Source: Paracoccaceae bacterium
GTDB lineage: Bacteria; Pseudomonadota; Alphaproteobacteria; Rhodobacterales; Rhodobacteraceae
Length of the DNA: 64,000 bases
Assembly (NCBI GenBank): GCA_024742705.1
Contig: JANSXZ010000002.1
Span: 186,001 to 250,000 of the forward strand
Reading direction: 5' to 3'
The first letter of the stretch is position 1. Every line of letters starts with the position of its first letter. The position numbers were made by a program, and so were the translations under genes. The notes beneath the pieces are model-generated. The model did not search any database. It was not told the origin of the DNA and worked only from the letters and a program-made list of their open reading frames with translations. This document shows positions 6,097-41,968 of the stretch, piece after piece.

Positions 6097-6918
6097 ATGT
6101 TTCAGACCGCAAGGCCAAAGTCCGGCTTCGCCACCGCGCTGGCGCTGTTCGAACTGATCTATCATTCGATCGTGCGCAGCGTGCGCAAATCGCACGGAAA
6201 CGCCTTCATGGCGATCGGCACGAACATGCTTCAGGTGATCATTTTCGTCCTTGCCTTCTATGTGATGTTCTCGGTTCTGGGGCTGCGCGGGGCGGCGGTG
6301 CGCGGCGATTTCCTGATCTACATCATGACCGGCATCTTCCTGTACATGACGCACGTCAAGACGTTGTCGGCGGTCGCCGGGTCGGAAGGTCCGTCCAGTC
6401 CGATGATGAAACACGCACCGATGAACACCATCATCGCCATCGCCTCGGCGGCGCTGGGCGCGCTTTACATCCAGGTGCTGTCGCTGTTCGTGATCCTGTT
6501 CGGCTACCATGTCGCCTTCACCCCCGTCGAGATCGACGACCCGGTCGGCGCTTTCGGAATGGTGATGATTGCCTGGTTCACCGGGCTGGCGCTGGGGCTG
6601 GTGCTGCTGGCGTTGAAGCCGTGGTTTCCGACCGGCGTGAACGTGTTCACCCAGATCTATCAGCGCGCCAACATGATCGCCTCGGGCAAGATGTTCGTGG
6701 CGAATTCGCTGCCGGGCTTCATGCTGGCCATGTTCGACTGGAACCCGCTGTTTCATGTGATCGACCAGGCCCGCGGCTTTTCGTTCATCAACTACAATCC
6801 GCGCTACAGCGATTGGGAATATGCGCTTCTGGTCGGCGTCGTTCTGGTGGTGATCGGCATGATGGGCGAATTCTACACCCGCCGGAACACCTCGGCCAGC
6901 TGGTACGCCCGCCGCTAA
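6097..6918 (+). CDS. ABC-2 type polysaccharide export permease (KpsM/RkpT-like)
   Basis: A 273-aa inner-membrane protein with about six hydrophobic segments (around residues 38-58, 70-85, 105-130, 147-168, 215-235 and 245-262). The pattern fits the ABC-2 permease that moves capsule or O-polysaccharide across the inner membrane. The start MFQTARPK at 6097 is chosen because the residues before it are not membrane-protein-like. The partner ATPase (KpsT type) that normally sits next to it is absent: cysQ lies divergently upstream and alkB convergently downstream with a 4-nt overlap. Family assignment is good; the cargo is inferred from the neighbouring glycosyltransferases. Confidence 0.8.
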   Translation: MFQTARPKSGFATALALFELIYHSIVRSVRKSHGNAFMAIGTNMLQVIIFVLAFYVMFSVLGLRGAAVRGDFLIYIMTGIFLYMTHVKTLSAVAGSEGPSSPMMKHAPMNTIIAIASAALGALYIQVLSLFVILFGYHVAFTPVEIDDPVGAFGMVMIAWFTGLALGLVLLALKPWFPTGVNVFTQIYQRANMIASGKMFVANSLPGFMLAMFDWNPLFHVIDQARGFSFINYNPRYSDWEYALLVGVVLVVIGMMGEFYTRRNTSASWYARR

Positions 6919-36932: not shown

Positions 36933-38768
36933 CTATTCCGCCGCTTCGGTCCGGATGAACCCGCCCGACTGGCGGTTCCAGTATTGCGCATACAGGCCGC
37001 CCTTGGCCAACAGCGCCGAATGGCCGCCCACTTCGACGATGCGGCCCCGGTCCATCACCACGATGCGATCCATTTCCGACAGCGTCGACAGGCGGTGCGC
37101 GATGGCCAGAACGGTCTTGCCCTCCATCACCCGGTCAAGCGCGCTCTGGATCGCGGCCTCGACCTCGCTGTCCAGTGCGCTGGTCGCCTCGTCCAGCACA
37201 AGGATCGGCGCATCCTTCAGGATCGCCCGCGCCAGCGCGATGCGTTGGCGTTGCCCGCCCGACAGTTTGACACCGCGTTCACCCAGATGCGCAGCATAGC
37301 CGCGCCGGCCCTTGTGATCCTCGAGTTCTTCGATGAAATCATGCGCCTCGGCCTTGCGGGCGGCGGCGATCACCTCGGCCTCGGTGGCATCGGGGCGGCC
37401 ATAAAGGATATTGTCGCGCGCCGACCGGTTGAACATCGCCGTTTCCTGGGTGACCATGCCGATGTTGCGGCGCAGGCTCTCCTGAGTGATATCCGCGATG
37501 TTCTGCCCATCGATGCGGATTTCGCCGGCTTCGCCCTGGTAGAGCCGCAGCAACAGCGAAACCAGTGTCGATTTCCCCGCACCCGACGCCCCGACGATGC
37601 CCAGCTTTTCACCCGGCGCGACCGTCAGGTCGATCGCCTCGATCCCGCCCGACTGACGGCCATAAGCAAAGCTGATGCCATCGAACGAGATTTCGCCATC
37701 CGGCACGTGCAGCGCGCCCGCCTCGGGCGGATCGTCCAGCCGGGTGCGCGGCGTCAGGGTGCGCATCCCGTCCTCGATCTCGCCGACGTTGGAATAGATC
37801 GCCATCAACGTGAAGCTGACCCAGCCGGTCATCTGCGCGATGCGTATCGAAACCGCGCCCGCGGCCACGATATCGCCTTCGGTCGCCATGCCGCCCTGCC
37901 ACAGCCACAGCGTGCCGCCGATCAAGAGCACCGGAAGAACCCCGGCCAGAGTCATCAGGCAAAACCGGAAGCCCGCCGCCAGATACCCGAATTCAAGCGC
38001 GCGTTGCCGGAATGTGCCCATGGCGCCCAGCGCGGCACGGTCTTCGTGATCGGCATGGGCAAACAGCTTGACGGTCTTGATGTTGGTGATCGTGTCGACA
38101 ACCTGGCCCGAAACCATCGCTCGCGCCCCGGCACGCCCGGCGCTGCGCTGGCGGATGCGCGGCAGAAACCATTTGATCATGCCGAAATAGGCGATCAGCC
38201 ACAGAAAGAACACCGCCGCCATGCGGCCATCGATCGTGATCAACAGCAGGACCGACCCCAGAAGCGATGCCAGCGCAAAGGCAACCACGTTGATCACTTC
38301 GGCGGCCACATCGGTGACCGCGCGCGCCGCCTGCATCTGCTTTTGTGCGATGCGCCCGGCGAAATCGTCATCGAAAAACCCGATCGCCTGCCCCAGCGTC
38401 CAGCGGTGCAAACGTGACAACACCAGGGGGTTCACGTTGGGCTGCACGATGATCGCGTTGGCCGATGCCGACAGGCCAAACAGCAAGGGCCGCGCAATCA
38501 GGAAAAACGCGACCGCGGCAACGATCATCCCCAGGTTTTCGGTGTAGAAACCGTCGGGGCCGGTGCTGACCGCGCTGTCGATCACCAACCCCAGGATCAG
38601 AGCGGTGCCCGCCTCCATGGCGCCGGCCAGCGCCGACAGGATCGCCGCCAGCCACAGCGCCGGCCACGCCCCCGACAGGCACCATTTCATGAACGGCCCC
38701 AGCTGTTGCGGCGGCGGCCCCTCGGCGGGGCGGAACGGATCGATCATGTCTTCTGCTGCGGTCTTCAT
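36933..38768 (-). CDS. ABC exporter half-transporter, second of a tandem pair
   Basis: A 611-aa protein with an N-terminal six-helix export domain (about 30-320) and a C-terminal ATPase. The ATPase has Walker A GASGAGKST, signature LSGGQRQRI and Walker B ILVLDEATSALD, all canonical, so it is not a degenerate partner. Its start overlaps the stop of the upstream half-transporter by 4 nt (ATGA), so the two are produced together and probably form a heterodimer. Cargo (lipid, drug or peptide) cannot be told. Confidence 0.92.
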   Translation of the reverse strand: MKTAAEDMIDPFRPAEGPPPQQLGPFMKWCLSGAWPALWLAAILSALAGAMEAGTALILGLVIDSAVSTGPDGFYTENLGMIVAAVAFFLIARPLLFGLSASANAIIVQPNVNPLVLSRLHRWTLGQAIGFFDDDFAGRIAQKQMQAARAVTDVAAEVINVVAFALASLLGSVLLLITIDGRMAAVFFLWLIAYFGMIKWFLPRIRQRSAGRAGARAMVSGQVVDTITNIKTVKLFAHADHEDRAALGAMGTFRQRALEFGYLAAGFRFCLMTLAGVLPVLLIGGTLWLWQGGMATEGDIVAAGAVSIRIAQMTGWVSFTLMAIYSNVGEIEDGMRTLTPRTRLDDPPEAGALHVPDGEISFDGISFAYGRQSGGIEAIDLTVAPGEKLGIVGASGAGKSTLVSLLLRLYQGEAGEIRIDGQNIADITQESLRRNIGMVTQETAMFNRSARDNILYGRPDATEAEVIAAARKAEAHDFIEELEDHKGRRGYAAHLGERGVKLSGGQRQRIALARAILKDAPILVLDEATSALDSEVEAAIQSALDRVMEGKTVLAIAHRLSTLSEMDRIVVMDRGRIVEVGGHSALLAKGGLYAQYWNRQSGGFIRTEAAE

Positions 38769-40603
38769 TCGGCGGCCTCGGGATTCAGGAACCCGCCGGA
38801 TTGACGCGCCCAGAACGAAGCATATAGCCCACCCTGCGCCAAAAGCGCGGAATGCGAACCGTCTTCGACGATACGCCCCTGATCCATGACCAGAATCCGA
38901 TCCATCTGGGCAATCGTGCTGAGCCGGTGCGCGATGGCGATGACGGTCTTGCCCTCCATCATTCCATAGAGCGTGCCCTGAATCGCCGCTTCCACCTCGC
39001 TGTCCAGCGCGCTCGTCGCTTCGTCGAGCACCAGGATCGGCGCGTCCTTCAGGATCACCCGCGCCAGCGTGATCCGCTGTCTCTGCCCGCCTGACAACTT
39101 GACACCGCGTTCGCCAACCTGCGCGTCATAGCCGGCGCGGCCTTCGGGATCTGTCAGATCGAGGATGAAATCATGCGCCTCGGCCTGCCGCGCGGCGGCG
39201 ATCACCTCGGCCTCGGTGGCGTTGGGGCGGCCATAAAGGATGTTGTCGCGCACCGAACGGTGCAACAGCGCGCTGTCTTGCTGAACCATGCCGATGTGGC
39301 CCCGCAGGCTGTCCTGCTGCACCTTCGCGATGTCCTGACCATCGATCAGGATACGGCCGCTTTCGGCGTCATAGAACCGCAACAGCAGCTTGACCAGCGT
39401 GGATTTGCCGGCACCCGACCGCCCGATCAGGCCGATCTTCTGGCCCGGCTCGACCACAAGATCGATATGATCGAGGCCGCCGCCGGCCCGGCCATAGTGA
39501 TGCGTCAGCGCCTTCAGTTCGATCCGGCCCTCGGTCAGACGCAGCGGCGTGGCGTCCGGCGCATCCAACAGGTCGATCGGCTGGGCAATGGTGCGCATAC
39601 CTTCGGCAACCACGCCAAGCTGCCGGAAGAACGTGGTCAGCGCCCACATGATCCATCCAGTCATCCCGTTCAGCCGCAGCACCAGGGCTGTGGCCGCCGC
39701 CACGCCACCCACGGATGTCACGCCCTGCATCCACAACCATATCGCCCAGCCCACCAGCGCCACCATCAACAGCCCGTTCAGCGCGGTCAGCAGGATGTCC
39801 ATCGTCGTGAATATCCGCATTTCGGCAATGAAGGTGCGGCGGGTTTCGTCTATGGCTTCCTTGGCGTAGGACAGTTCGCGGTCGTGATGGGCGAACATCT
39901 TTACCGAATGGATGTTGGTATAGCTGTCGACGACGCGGCCCGTCACCGTCGACCGCGCGTCCGAAGCCGCCTCGGATGCGGGGCCCACGCGCGTCACCGT
40001 CCAGCGGATCAGCAACGCATAGAACACCAGCCAACCGGCCAGCGGCACCAGAAGGATCGGATCCGACACCGACAACAGGATCGCAGCGCCGACGATATAG
40101 GCAACCGAATACGAGATCGCGTCAAAGACCTGAAACATCACCTCGCCGGCGGCGGGCGGGGTCTGCATGATGCGGTTGGCGATGCGCCCGGCGAAATCGT
40201 TCTCGAACCAGCCGACCGACTGGCGCAGCACATGCCGGTGCGCACGCCAGCGGATCAACGTGCCGAAATTGGGCATGATTGCGTTGTTCAGGAACAACAC
40301 GTTCAGCCCTTGCACCAGGGGCCGCAGGAACACGACGAAAAGCGCCAGAATGATCAGTTCGGTGCCGTGCCGCGCCCAGACCTCGGCCGGGGTGCCCGAC
40401 AAAAGATCGACGACCCGCCCCATGTAGTAGATCATCAGGATCTCGATGGCGGCGACGCAGATCGAAAGCGCGAAGGTGATCGCCAGAACCGGGCGGAAGG
40501 GTTCGGCATAGGCCCGAAGAAACGGCCACAGACGGGTGGGCGGACGGTCTTCCTGCGGATAATCCACATAGGGATCGACGAGGTTTTCAAAAAATCTGAA
40601 CAT
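38765..40603 (-). CDS. ABC exporter half-transporter, first of a tandem pair
   Basis: A 612-aa ABC exporter with an N-terminal membrane domain (about 40-330) and ATPase with Walker A GRSGAGKST, LSGGQRQRI and ILVLDEATSALD. The start MFRFFENLVD at 40603 is chosen because the upstream extension lies in a region with its own regulatory look. It is closely similar in layout to the following gene, which suggests duplication. Upstream, within 210 nt, lie a putative promoter, a 10-codon leader ORF and a hairpin, described separately; these may regulate the pair. Confidence 0.92.
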   Translation of the reverse strand: MFRFFENLVDPYVDYPQEDRPPTRLWPFLRAYAEPFRPVLAITFALSICVAAIEILMIYYMGRVVDLLSGTPAEVWARHGTELIILALFVVFLRPLVQGLNVLFLNNAIMPNFGTLIRWRAHRHVLRQSVGWFENDFAGRIANRIMQTPPAAGEVMFQVFDAISYSVAYIVGAAILLSVSDPILLVPLAGWLVFYALLIRWTVTRVGPASEAASDARSTVTGRVVDSYTNIHSVKMFAHHDRELSYAKEAIDETRRTFIAEMRIFTTMDILLTALNGLLMVALVGWAIWLWMQGVTSVGGVAAATALVLRLNGMTGWIMWALTTFFRQLGVVAEGMRTIAQPIDLLDAPDATPLRLTEGRIELKALTHHYGRAGGGLDHIDLVVEPGQKIGLIGRSGAGKSTLVKLLLRFYDAESGRILIDGQDIAKVQQDSLRGHIGMVQQDSALLHRSVRDNILYGRPNATEAEVIAAARQAEAHDFILDLTDPEGRAGYDAQVGERGVKLSGGQRQRITLARVILKDAPILVLDEATSALDSEVEAAIQGTLYGMMEGKTVIAIAHRLSTIAQMDRILVMDQGRIVEDGSHSALLAQGGLYASFWARQSGGFLNPEAAE

Positions 40604-40666
40604 GTCGGATACGCCTTGAAAAGCGATGTATGTACGCAAATGCACTTAGGGCGATTGCAATGAAAT

Positions 40667-40684
40667 CACCCGAAAATACGGGTG
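40667..40684. other. Hairpin in the leader of the ABC exporter operon
   Basis: CACCCG (40667-40672) and CGGGTG (40679-40684) form a perfect 6-bp stem with loop AAAATA. In the minus-strand transcript it begins 3 nt after the stop of a 10-codon ORF and lies about 64 nt before the exporter start. No T-run follows. Confidence 0.5.
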
Positions 40685-40686
40685 TG

Positions 40687-40719
40687 TCAGCCGTGGCTGT
40701 ACCAAATCCCGTAATACAT
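40687..40719 (-). CDS. Possible 10-residue leader peptide of the ABC exporter operon
   Basis: ATG at 40717-40719 is preceded by GGAGGG (40727-40732), 7 nt away, a nearly ideal ribosome site. The ORF encodes MYYGIWYSHG and ends TGA at 40687. Four of ten residues are aromatic. The stop lies 3 nt before a hairpin, and the exporter gene begins 84 nt after the ORF. This is the arrangement of a ribosome-mediated attenuator, as known for some drug-exporter operons. It is supported only by layout; the peptide is not recognised. Confidence 0.35.
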   Translation of the reverse strand: MYYGIWYSHG

Positions 40720-40749
40720 TGCGCATCCCTCCGATCAGTGGATGATCGG

Positions 40750-40778
40750 GAAATAGCCCACGACACCCGGTTTGTCAC
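40750..40778 (-). promoter_or_regulatory. Possible promoter of the leader ORF and ABC exporter operon
   Basis: On the minus strand, GTGACA (40773-40778) and TATTTC (40750-40755) are spaced by 17 nt. The -35 element differs from TTGACA at one base; the -10 element matches TATAAT at only the first three positions, so it is weak. It would start transcription about 11 nt before the leader ribosome site. Confidence 0.35.
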
Positions 40779-40813
40779 CCCCCTTTCCCGGATTGAAGGC
40801 CGGCTGCCACAGG

Positions 40814-41968
40814 TCAGTCGGGGGCATTCAGAAGATCGCCGCGCGACAGGACAAACCCCGAGGCGATCCAGAGCGACCGCAAATGCTCCAGCCGGGCGCC
40901 CAGGGCGGGGCCCTGCCAACGCGGCATCAGATCCGGGGCCGAAACCGGAAACACCTTCCCGGCGGCCTCGGATGCCTGCGCCAAAGCCGCCGGATCGGGC
41001 GGCTGTTCCAGCAGCGCGGCGCGCAGGGCCAGAACGTCATGCGCCGTCTGCGCCCCGTGCCGGAATCCCAGTTCGGGCGCCGGCTGCGTGGATTGCACCA
41101 GCCTGCGCAGCAATTCCAGATGCCGGACCTGCGCACGCGCAAGGCGCAGGCCAGCACCCGCGTCGCCCAGCGCCGCGAGCCGGCGCAGGGGATCGGGATT
41201 CATGCCGTAACGGGCTTCGATGTCGATCAACGGCGCCAATGCCCTGTCGTCGACGCCGGGCAGCACCTGCATCAACACGCCGGTCTGGCGCATCGCCGCG
41301 ACCGCAGGTGCGGGATCGGGCGCCGCCAGAAGGCGCAGCAGTTCGGCCCCGACCCTTTCGCGCGACAGCTGGTCGAGGCCGTCAAGCTGACCGGCGATGG
41401 CGGCGAGGGCCTCGGCGTCCATCCCCGCGGCAGCGTTGCCGTACCAGGCATGAAAGCGGAAGAACCGCAGGCTGCGCAGGTAATCCTCGCGGATGCGGGC
41501 GTTGGCGTCGCCGATGAACCGGACGCGGCGCGCGGCCAGATCGGCCAGCCCGCCCAGAGGATCGAGCACATCGCCGTCGGGCGTGGCATAAAGCGCGTTC
41601 ATGGTAAAATCGCGCCGCGCCGCATCTTCGGCCATATCGCGCGAAAACGCCACCACGGCATGGCGCCCATCGGTGCGCACATCACGGCGGAAGGTTGTCA
41701 CCTCGTGTGGCACACCATCCGATACCACGGTCACGGTGCCATGGTCGGCACCGGTGGCGACAGGGCGCAGACCGGCATCTGCCGCGATGCGCATGACGGT
41801 GTCGGGTGTGGCATCGGTGGCGATGTCTATGTCGCGCACAGGCGCTCCGATCAGGGCGTTGCGCACGCACCCGCCGACAAACAGCGCCCGCGCGCCCGAT
41901 CCGGTCAGCGCGGTGCAGACGGCCTGCGTCGCCGGACGGTCAAGCCAGTCACCGCCGACCCGTGTCAT
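40814..41968 (-). CDS. cca: CCA tRNA nucleotidyltransferase
   Basis: The 384-aa class II polymerase adds or repairs the 3' CCA of tRNA. Conserved motifs are GGCVRNALIG at 32-41 (usually VRDALLG), the metal-binding DID at 46-48, RRDFTMNALY, and DPLGGLADL...RFIGD, with EDYLRSLRFFRFHAWYG in the helical part. The alphaproteobacterial length fits. It overlaps the following (upstream in genome, same operon) CoA diphosphatase by 4 nt (ATGA). Its stop lies about 35 nt before the ABC exporter promoter region. Confidence 0.95.
   Translation of the reverse strand: MTRVGGDWLDRPATQAVCTALTGSGARALFVGGCVRNALIGAPVRDIDIATDATPDTVMRIAADAGLRPVATGADHGTVTVVSDGVPHEVTTFRRDVRTDGRHAVVAFSRDMAEDAARRDFTMNALYATPDGDVLDPLGGLADLAARRVRFIGDANARIREDYLRSLRFFRFHAWYGNAAAGMDAEALAAIAGQLDGLDQLSRERVGAELLRLLAAPDPAPAVAAMRQTGVLMQVLPGVDDRALAPLIDIEARYGMNPDPLRRLAALGDAGAGLRLARAQVRHLELLRRLVQSTQPAPELGFRHGAQTAHDVLALRAALLEQPPDPAALAQASEAAGKVFPVSAPDLMPRWQGPALGARLEHLRSLWIASGFVLSRGDLLNAPD

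Follow-up and report, generated by a model that had tools for sequence, protein, structure and literature searches.

Does the 210-nt gap before a tandem ABC exporter in a Paracoccaceae bacterium hold a regulatory leader and, if so, how might it act on the exporter? We analyzed a window of 64,000 nt (positions 186,001 to 250,000 of contig JANSXZ010000002.1, GCA_024742705.1, an assembly of 41 contigs and 3.7 Mb). The gap occupies positions 40604-40813 of the window; on the minus strand it separates the stop of a CCA-enzyme-like gene from exporter half 1 (Table 1). A preliminary description had listed a GTGACA/TATTTC promoter-like pair with 17-nt spacing, a GGAGGG ribosome site, a 10-codon ORF (MYYGIWYSHG) and a perfect 6-bp hairpin (CACCCG/CGGGTG). 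All of these are present on the minus strand, the hairpin beginning at the third base past the stop. An alternative in-frame GTG at 40645 exists for exporter half 1; relatives align at ATG 40603.

Table 1 Features of the leader region and the neighboring genes in the window
Feature	Position	Strand	Basis or remark
CCA-enzyme-like gene with poly(A)-polymerase head domain	40814-41968	-	gene upstream of the gap
-35-like hexamer GTGACA	40773-40778	-	sequence read; TGAC[AT] kept in relatives
-10-like hexamer TATTTC, 17-nt spacer	40750-40755	-	sequence read; TA at 17-18 nt in relatives
P0 5' strand UCGGA, overlaps leader Shine-Dalgarno; partner 40609-40605	40730-40734	-	minimum-energy fold and swap test
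Leader Shine-Dalgarno GGAGGG, 7 nt before ATG 40719	40727-40732	-	GGAGG conserved in relatives
P1 5' strand GCGCAATGTAT (leader start region); partner element E, 40645-40634	40714-40724	-	P 0.80 and 0.95; swap z -9.6
Leader ORF MYYGIWYSHG, ATG 40719, TGA 40689-40687	40687-40719	-	sequence and relatives
Segment A, TACGGG (ORF codons 3-4)	40708-40713	-	P 0.92; A:B swap z -5.9
Segment B, CCCGTA; pairs with A, also part of the alternative helix	40677-40682	-	window fold
Alternative helix B:C, CACCCG 40684-40679 / CGGGTG 40672-40667	40667-40684	-	P 0.016 free; swap z -3.7 (94 sequences)
Hairpin C:D, GGGTGATT/AATCGCCC	40649-40671	-	P 0.96; swap z -9.0
Element E, P1 3' strand, GTGCA...TTGCGT	40634-40645	-	window fold and swap test
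P4 hairpin CGCTT/AGGCG over exporter Shine-Dalgarno region; GCTC/GAGC in relatives	40612-40625	-	P 0.83; no own-pair excess in swap test
P0 3' strand, spacer and first base of exporter start codon	40603-40609	-	minimum-energy fold
ABC exporter half 1, 612 aa, ATG 40603	38765-40603	-	reading frame
ABC exporter half 2, 611 aa, 4-nt overlap with half 1	36933-38768	-	reading frame

The leader recurs before the same exporter in one roseobacter family

The window contains one match to the ORF start pattern, and none of 100 shuffles contains any. Among leaders of relatives with enough upstream sequence, TGAC[AT] is found in 106/106, with a TA 17-18 nt after it in 95/106; a strict sigma-70 consensus scan of the window region gave no promoter match. 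The 6-bp hairpin on its own is not significant although flagged by a terminator-like scan, since shuffles average 0.6 such sites. The z-score of the window fold is only -2.20, and 6/200 shuffles are equally or more stable. A chance ORF and hairpin as the explanation is ruled out by the shuffles, the exporter-linked relatives and the model matches given below.

The relatives, all from one family, of roseobacter type to judge by its named members, share a layout of a promoter-like pair, a Shine-Dalgarno sequence, an ORF of 8-12 codons, hairpins and the exporter ~115 nt downstream. With the gap DNA as query, matches were obtained in 52 of 295 family genomes (E up to 0.1); 13 of the 29 other loci fetched from these matches carry the leader, in short matching stretches of 70-92% identity, while the remainder appear chance-like. 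The pattern ATG-Tyr-[Tyr/His]-Gly-x-Trp was found at 35 places in 34/394 family genomes (10 matches for the reversed-pattern control), and at least 5 of 30 loci fetched from its matches are unrelated. A scan of named genomes yielded at least 118 stretches; those among the 80 matches listed come mostly from Ruegeria, Leisingera, Phaeobacter, Roseovarius and their relatives.

The exporter lies downstream in 110 of 124 distinct pattern matches, 107 assigned by script and 3 by eye. The 17 set aside by the script were these 3 true leaders, in which the exporter start had been missed, together with the 14 others, of which 3 are cut by the locus end and 11 are unrelated. In the 107 leaders, the distance from leader start to exporter start is 107-150 nt and a stop follows after 8-10 codons in every case, though the pattern did not require one (TAA 73, TGA 33, TAG 1). 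The Trp codon is fixed as TGG by the pattern (107/107), while Gly is encoded by GGG in 103/107 with other Gly codons allowed.

Searches with a covariance model, R1, matched 50 of 196 genomes of the order and 21 of 88 genera, at one place per genome and all in one family; the listed non-matching genomes of this sample belong to the same family too, so it carries little information on other families. A search of a sample of the class matched 3/240 genomes, all in the window's family, under stricter filters, which lose weak matches.

The exporter is commoner than its leader, its N-terminus being found in 126/159 family genomes. Upstream regions were read for 90 loci out of 136 exporter places found, at least two of which (L238 and L263) were unreadable, and the leader was recognized by reading in 31/90. 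The same exporter stands under two quite different upstream regions.

A search against Rfam gave no match to the leader region at the gathering threshold, and the two matches up to E 10 in positions 40560-40813 scored far below their gathering thresholds and were unrelated in kind. Elsewhere in the window, Rfam Cis2_sRNA (RF02645, Ruegeria cis2 sRNA) matches positions 6661-6813 on the minus strand (117.9 bits, E 1.1e-23). By eye, many leaderless exporter loci (L086, L087, L210 and others) have a TATAT-like box and a C-rich spacer directly before the start.

A conserved fold joins the leader start to the exporter start

The minimum-energy folds of most relatives shown form one nested structure composed of P0, P1, A:B, C:D and P4. 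In this structure, codons 3-5 pair with a post-stop segment (A:B), the hairpin next downstream is C:D, and the leader Shine-Dalgarno/start region pairs with the sequence before, and at, the exporter start (P1 and P0). In the window, P0 is part of the minimum-energy fold but not of the best fold with more coding sequence included.

We compared the pairing of each 5' strand with its own 3' strand and with that of another sequence, in an alignment-free swap test. This test, and the model of exporter-start opening below, used 98 of 129 sequences after removal of near-duplicates (L268, L097 and L128 are not among the 129). Own partners were preferred in P0 (z -10.4), P1 (-9.6), A:B (-5.9) and C:D (-9.0), with 0/2000 permutations in each case, against +0.8, +0.8 and +2.5 for three control pairings. 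P4 showed no own-pair excess (0.0) in these 98 sequences, in which it is near-invariant. A covariance model built from 21 sequences aligned 89/95 sources with 76.6% of cells paired and two-sided changes in 41/42 pairs; its covariation score of 0.330 exceeded those obtained with shuffled letters (0.163) and with slid structures (0.044-0.080). Because the covariance-model alignment leans towards its model, the swap test gives cleaner evidence. RNAalifold returned only 5 pairs on the plain alignment A2 and weaker, partial structures on 54 sequences, and a ribosum-scored consensus fold on an alignment similar to A2 reached -39 kcal/mol.

The alternative helix B:C was treated separately. With the first windows its z was -2.2 overall, -1.3 in the main group (MYxGxW-type leaders) and -2.5 in the divergent group. 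Values from five other window sets (-3.1 to -8.5 main, -1.0 to -2.6 divergent) were discarded, as their windows overlap C:D in many sequences. With B and the C arm cut for each sequence (C begins 15 nt past the leader stop in the window), z was -3.7 overall (94 sequences, 0/2000), -2.3 in the main and -3.2 in the divergent group, with controls A:C and B:D at +0.9 to +2.8; the C:D value of this version is not evidence, since the arms were chosen by C:D pairing. The mean energy of the own B:C duplex is -9.8 kcal/mol versus -9.0 when swapped, and -4.3 and -4.5 for the control pairings. B and C show little variation while remaining complementary throughout, so that swapping costs B:C little. In the sequences compared, P0, P1, A:B and C:D covary, and B:C shows a weaker, modest covariation. 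The comparison with relatives that the preliminary description had proposed supports it in that the ORF and the pairing are both conserved, with covariation.

Base pairing is more conserved than the peptide

We then considered 73 leaders that were not chosen by peptide, comprising upstream readings and matches of a model trained on MYYG/MYHG sequences. The script that read them required a Shine-Dalgarno sequence and 6-12 residues, and preferred M..G[ILM] if several ATGs fitted. The core consists of 62 leaders of the form M..[GR][ILM]; two of the 11 outside it (L073 and L250) are probably spurious. Residue 3 is one of ten different amino acids in the core leaders, and the third base of its codon is C in 56/62. 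The Gly4 codon is GGG in 56/58, Tyr2 is present in 48/62 and Trp6 in 52/62. Divergent leaders such as MIYRIRTALV and MENGLIRHLI retain the complementarity between codons 3-5 and the post-stop segment with other letters (CAGGATC/GATCCTG or GAATGGG/CCCATTC).

To judge by these sequences, the RNA pairing is more conserved than the peptide, and codons 3-4 look to be held by base pairing, while the peptide may account for the retention of Tyr2 and Trp6. A purely peptide-conserved leader is rejected, as the residue at codon 3 varies and its third base hardly does. Of the earlier proposal, the ORF is indeed conserved before the same exporter, but its amino-acid sequence is not conserved throughout. 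Because residue 3 varies and divergent leaders keep the pairing despite sharing few residues, arrest on an aromatic peptide is at most possible, and in the MYxGIW group only.

Modeled ribosome position selects between helices

B:C competes with both A:B and C:D. We masked a footprint of ~30 nt step by step along the leader to represent the ribosome, in the 94/98 sequences with a clear C:D hairpin (the set also used for the C-arm test of B:C; 95/98 were used for the T-tract count below). Without a ribosome, B:C was ahead of C:D in 0/79 main-group sequences. It was ahead in 42, 45, 55, 58 and 61 of the 79 with the ribosome at codons 1-5, respectively, gave a mixed result at codon 6 (33/79), and fell to 19, 4, 1 and 0 at codons 7-10. 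Among the divergent leaders, B:C was ahead in 7-10 of 15 with the ribosome at codons 1-5. The full off-on-off course was followed by 57/79 real sequences versus 20/246 shuffled trials. Chimeras with the 3' part of another relative also switch (65 of 145 usable, 164 made), because B and C are conserved. The expected number of P1 pairs was 10.2 in the free RNA, 0-2.1 with the ribosome at codons 1-5, 5.7 at codon 6 and 9.8 at codon 8.

In the window, the modeled probability of B:C is 0.016 in the free RNA. A ribosome at codons 1-3, 5 or 6 raises it to 0.69-0.85, whereas it is 0.22 for codon 4, 0.45 for codon 7 and at most 0.12 for codons 8-10. The hairpin noted at the outset, which is B:C, is accordingly a minor conformer of the free RNA, and is predicted to become the major one when a ribosome occupies early codons. 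The alternative pairing that the preliminary description had lacked is found in the models, with A:B and C:D set against B:C by ribosome position. The folding models therefore describe mutually exclusive helices, with the topology of an attenuator, and the conserved MYxGIW segment roughly coincides with the modeled stall window.

A proposed switch and its alternatives

We propose that in this gap the exporter operon has a leader RNA controlled by the ribosome, in which early arrest would switch exporter translation on, and give this proposal an even chance. With no ribosome on the leader ORF, A:B and C:D would form and P1 and P0 would close the exporter start, lowering exporter translation. 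When a ribosome initiates or is arrested on codons 1-5, P1 and A:B would break, as would P0 at codons 1-2; B would then pair with C and the exporter start site would be loosened, the ON state. A ribosome near the stop would cover B, so that C:D and P1/P0 re-form, the OFF state. As for the signal, we infer early arrest of leader translation, most plausibly by translation-inhibiting compounds, and in the MYxGIW group the peptide may assist the arrest.

The modeled output agrees with this proposal in part. A ribosome at the leader start raised the unpaired fraction of the exporter spacer and AUG from 0.29 to 0.64, in a thermodynamic model that omits the bulk of the ribosome inside the loop. An opening of >0.2 was seen in 60/82 main-group sequences versus 17/328 shuffles, and in 7/16 divergent members versus 1/64. 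A control mask of comparable length placed over C:D opened this site in part too (0.42), and the excess closure of free leaders relative to shuffles is only moderate (0.29 vs 0.40 unpaired). With the ribosome at codons 3-10, the modeled exporter start is nearly as closed as in the free RNA (0.29-0.35 vs 0.29). The window's own longer fold showed no clear ribosome effect, the exporter start being unpaired at 0.59 when free, 0.44 with the ribosome at codon 1 and 0.52-0.70 elsewhere. Further points against the proposal are the weak B:C covariation of the main group, the 5 pairs of RNAalifold on A2 and the many relatives whose exporter has no leader. The predicted opening of the exporter start is convincing at codons 1-2 only and is the weakest part of the mechanism. 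This restriction to the first two codons would suit a fold that simply tuned exporter translation, by translational coupling or as an RNA thermometer, with the ORF merely keeping the fold open. Such constitutive or temperature-type control would also fit the divergent group, in which the peptides are not conserved. However, it has no need of a reset at codons 6-8, just past MYxGIW, nor of conserved A and B segments and an alternative B:C helix, and we regard it as improbable.

Control could instead fall on transcription, as in bmrBCD or msrDL, with C:D, or a Rho-dependent site behind it, stopping the polymerase unless a stalled ribosome allows B:C. The topology (1:2/3:4 versus 2:3) and the logic of ribosome position are identical, and terminator-like hairpins occur in 19/98 leaders, versus a mean of 3.65 and a maximum of 9 in shuffles. 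A subset with MYYGIWFG/DS leaders, several from Ruegeria, has a short T-rich tract after C:D, and this subset possibly employs additional transcription attenuation. However, the 8 nt that follow C:D contain at least five T in just 5/80 main-group and 1/15 divergent members, and the window has TAAGTGCA at this place, with no U-tract. An intrinsic terminator as a general rule is therefore rejected, the U-tract being missing in most members including the window. Moreover, P0 and P1 covary and extend to the exporter start region, and a terminator would have no use for either. Since U-tracts are few and P0 and P1 link the start regions of leader and exporter, we favor control at exporter translation over control at termination; attenuation of transcription is unlikely, though less so than the thermometer-like alternative. 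Among the individual loci, L100, L132, L140 and L185 have a T-rich tract directly after C:D that is terminator-like, unlike the window.

The frequent Tyr2 and Trp6 of the core leaders, with codons inside or bordering the modeled stall window, would suit a sensor of amino acids in which the ribosome halts at codon 2, 3 or 6 on Tyr or Trp starvation. Yet several divergent leaders keep the RNA fold with neither Tyr nor Trp, the leaders have no single-codon run and an exporter would be an unexpected target, making this reading very improbable. A closer relative of our proposal is a peptide-independent detector of early translation arrest. In such a detector the leader ribosome-entry site would lock that of the exporter, any ribosome on the first codons would open it and completion of the ORF would close it, with the peptide drifting between genera as the RNA co-evolves. 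We hold this version tentatively, below our main proposal and above attenuation of transcription. The retest of B:C led us to lower the ribosome-controlled, early-arrest leader from slightly better than even, to trim the detector by a smaller step, and to raise two of the rivals slightly.

Relation to known systems and significance

By sequence, the closest solved structures to both exporter halves are eukaryotic ABCB proteins, namely plant ABCB19/ABCB1 and mammalian P-glycoprotein. For each half, none of the 25 NCBIfam models shown reaches its cut-off. Walker A, LSGGQ, Walker B DE and H-switch motifs are present in both halves and both ATP sites look canonical by sequence. BmrCD reportedly has one degenerate ATP site; the present exporter differs, as both of its sites look intact.

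In erm translational attenuators, a ribosome stalled on a short leader ORF frees the downstream ribosome-binding site. The genes controlled there encode methylases, whereas here an exporter follows, and we know of no sequence relation between erm leaders and the present one.

In Salmonella mgtQ-mgtB (PMC8092293), an 8-aa ORF precedes a transporter gene, 1:2/3:4 stem-loops alternate with 2:3, and leader translation frees the transporter ribosome-binding site. The short ORF before a transporter gene and the alternative stem-loops are alike. However, mgtQ lies between two operon genes and acts via ribosome-destabilizing Asp/Glu codons (PMC8092293), whereas the present leader has no conserved acidic codons and uses its own start region as pairing partner of that of the exporter. 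The bmrB leader of Bacillus subtilis has 53 codons with an intrinsic terminator inside (PMC4191407). It resembles the present RNA in its leader ORF before a tandem ABC exporter, its alternative stem-loops and the ribosome as presumed sensor, and differs in that the present leader has 8-12 codons, no general terminator, and helices that extend to the exporter start region. The likeness to this system that the preliminary description had drawn thus holds for the ORF and the alternative helices and fails for the terminator, because of which we do not file the leader as bmrBCD-type; the preliminary interpretation as a whole is partly supported. The Streptococcus msrDL leader (MYLIFM) stalls at the stop codon and acts via an intrinsic terminator (PMC10314930). 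It is likewise a very short hydrophobic leader starting MY, with ribosome-mediated attenuation of a resistance gene, but a ribosome near the stop would correspond to the OFF state in our model.

Within the same order, uORFC-8-2 is a uORF attenuator candidate in the Rhodobacterales cysS leader, with tandem Cys codons and a terminator U-run (PMC8632094); gene, Cys codons and U-run all set it apart from the present RNA. A motif uORFC-8-1, implied by the numbering in that text, may be identical to the present RNA. Our literature search, which covered openly readable papers and the main text of PMC8632094, found no description of the present leader, and 'MYYGIW' or 'MYHGIW' in no paper. Within this scope, it is a conserved leader RNA without an Rfam match that is undescribed in the literature searched.

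The finding contributes a uORF-bearing leader, both conserved and structured, that precedes a P-glycoprotein-like exporter pair in an ecologically large group of marine bacteria. If the proposed switch is true, these bacteria would induce the pump when translation is poisoned, with no transcription factor involved, and translation inhibitors would be suggested as its inducers and candidate substrates. The two ribosome-entry sites would then mask one another, in a design that leaves the leader peptide mostly free to vary.
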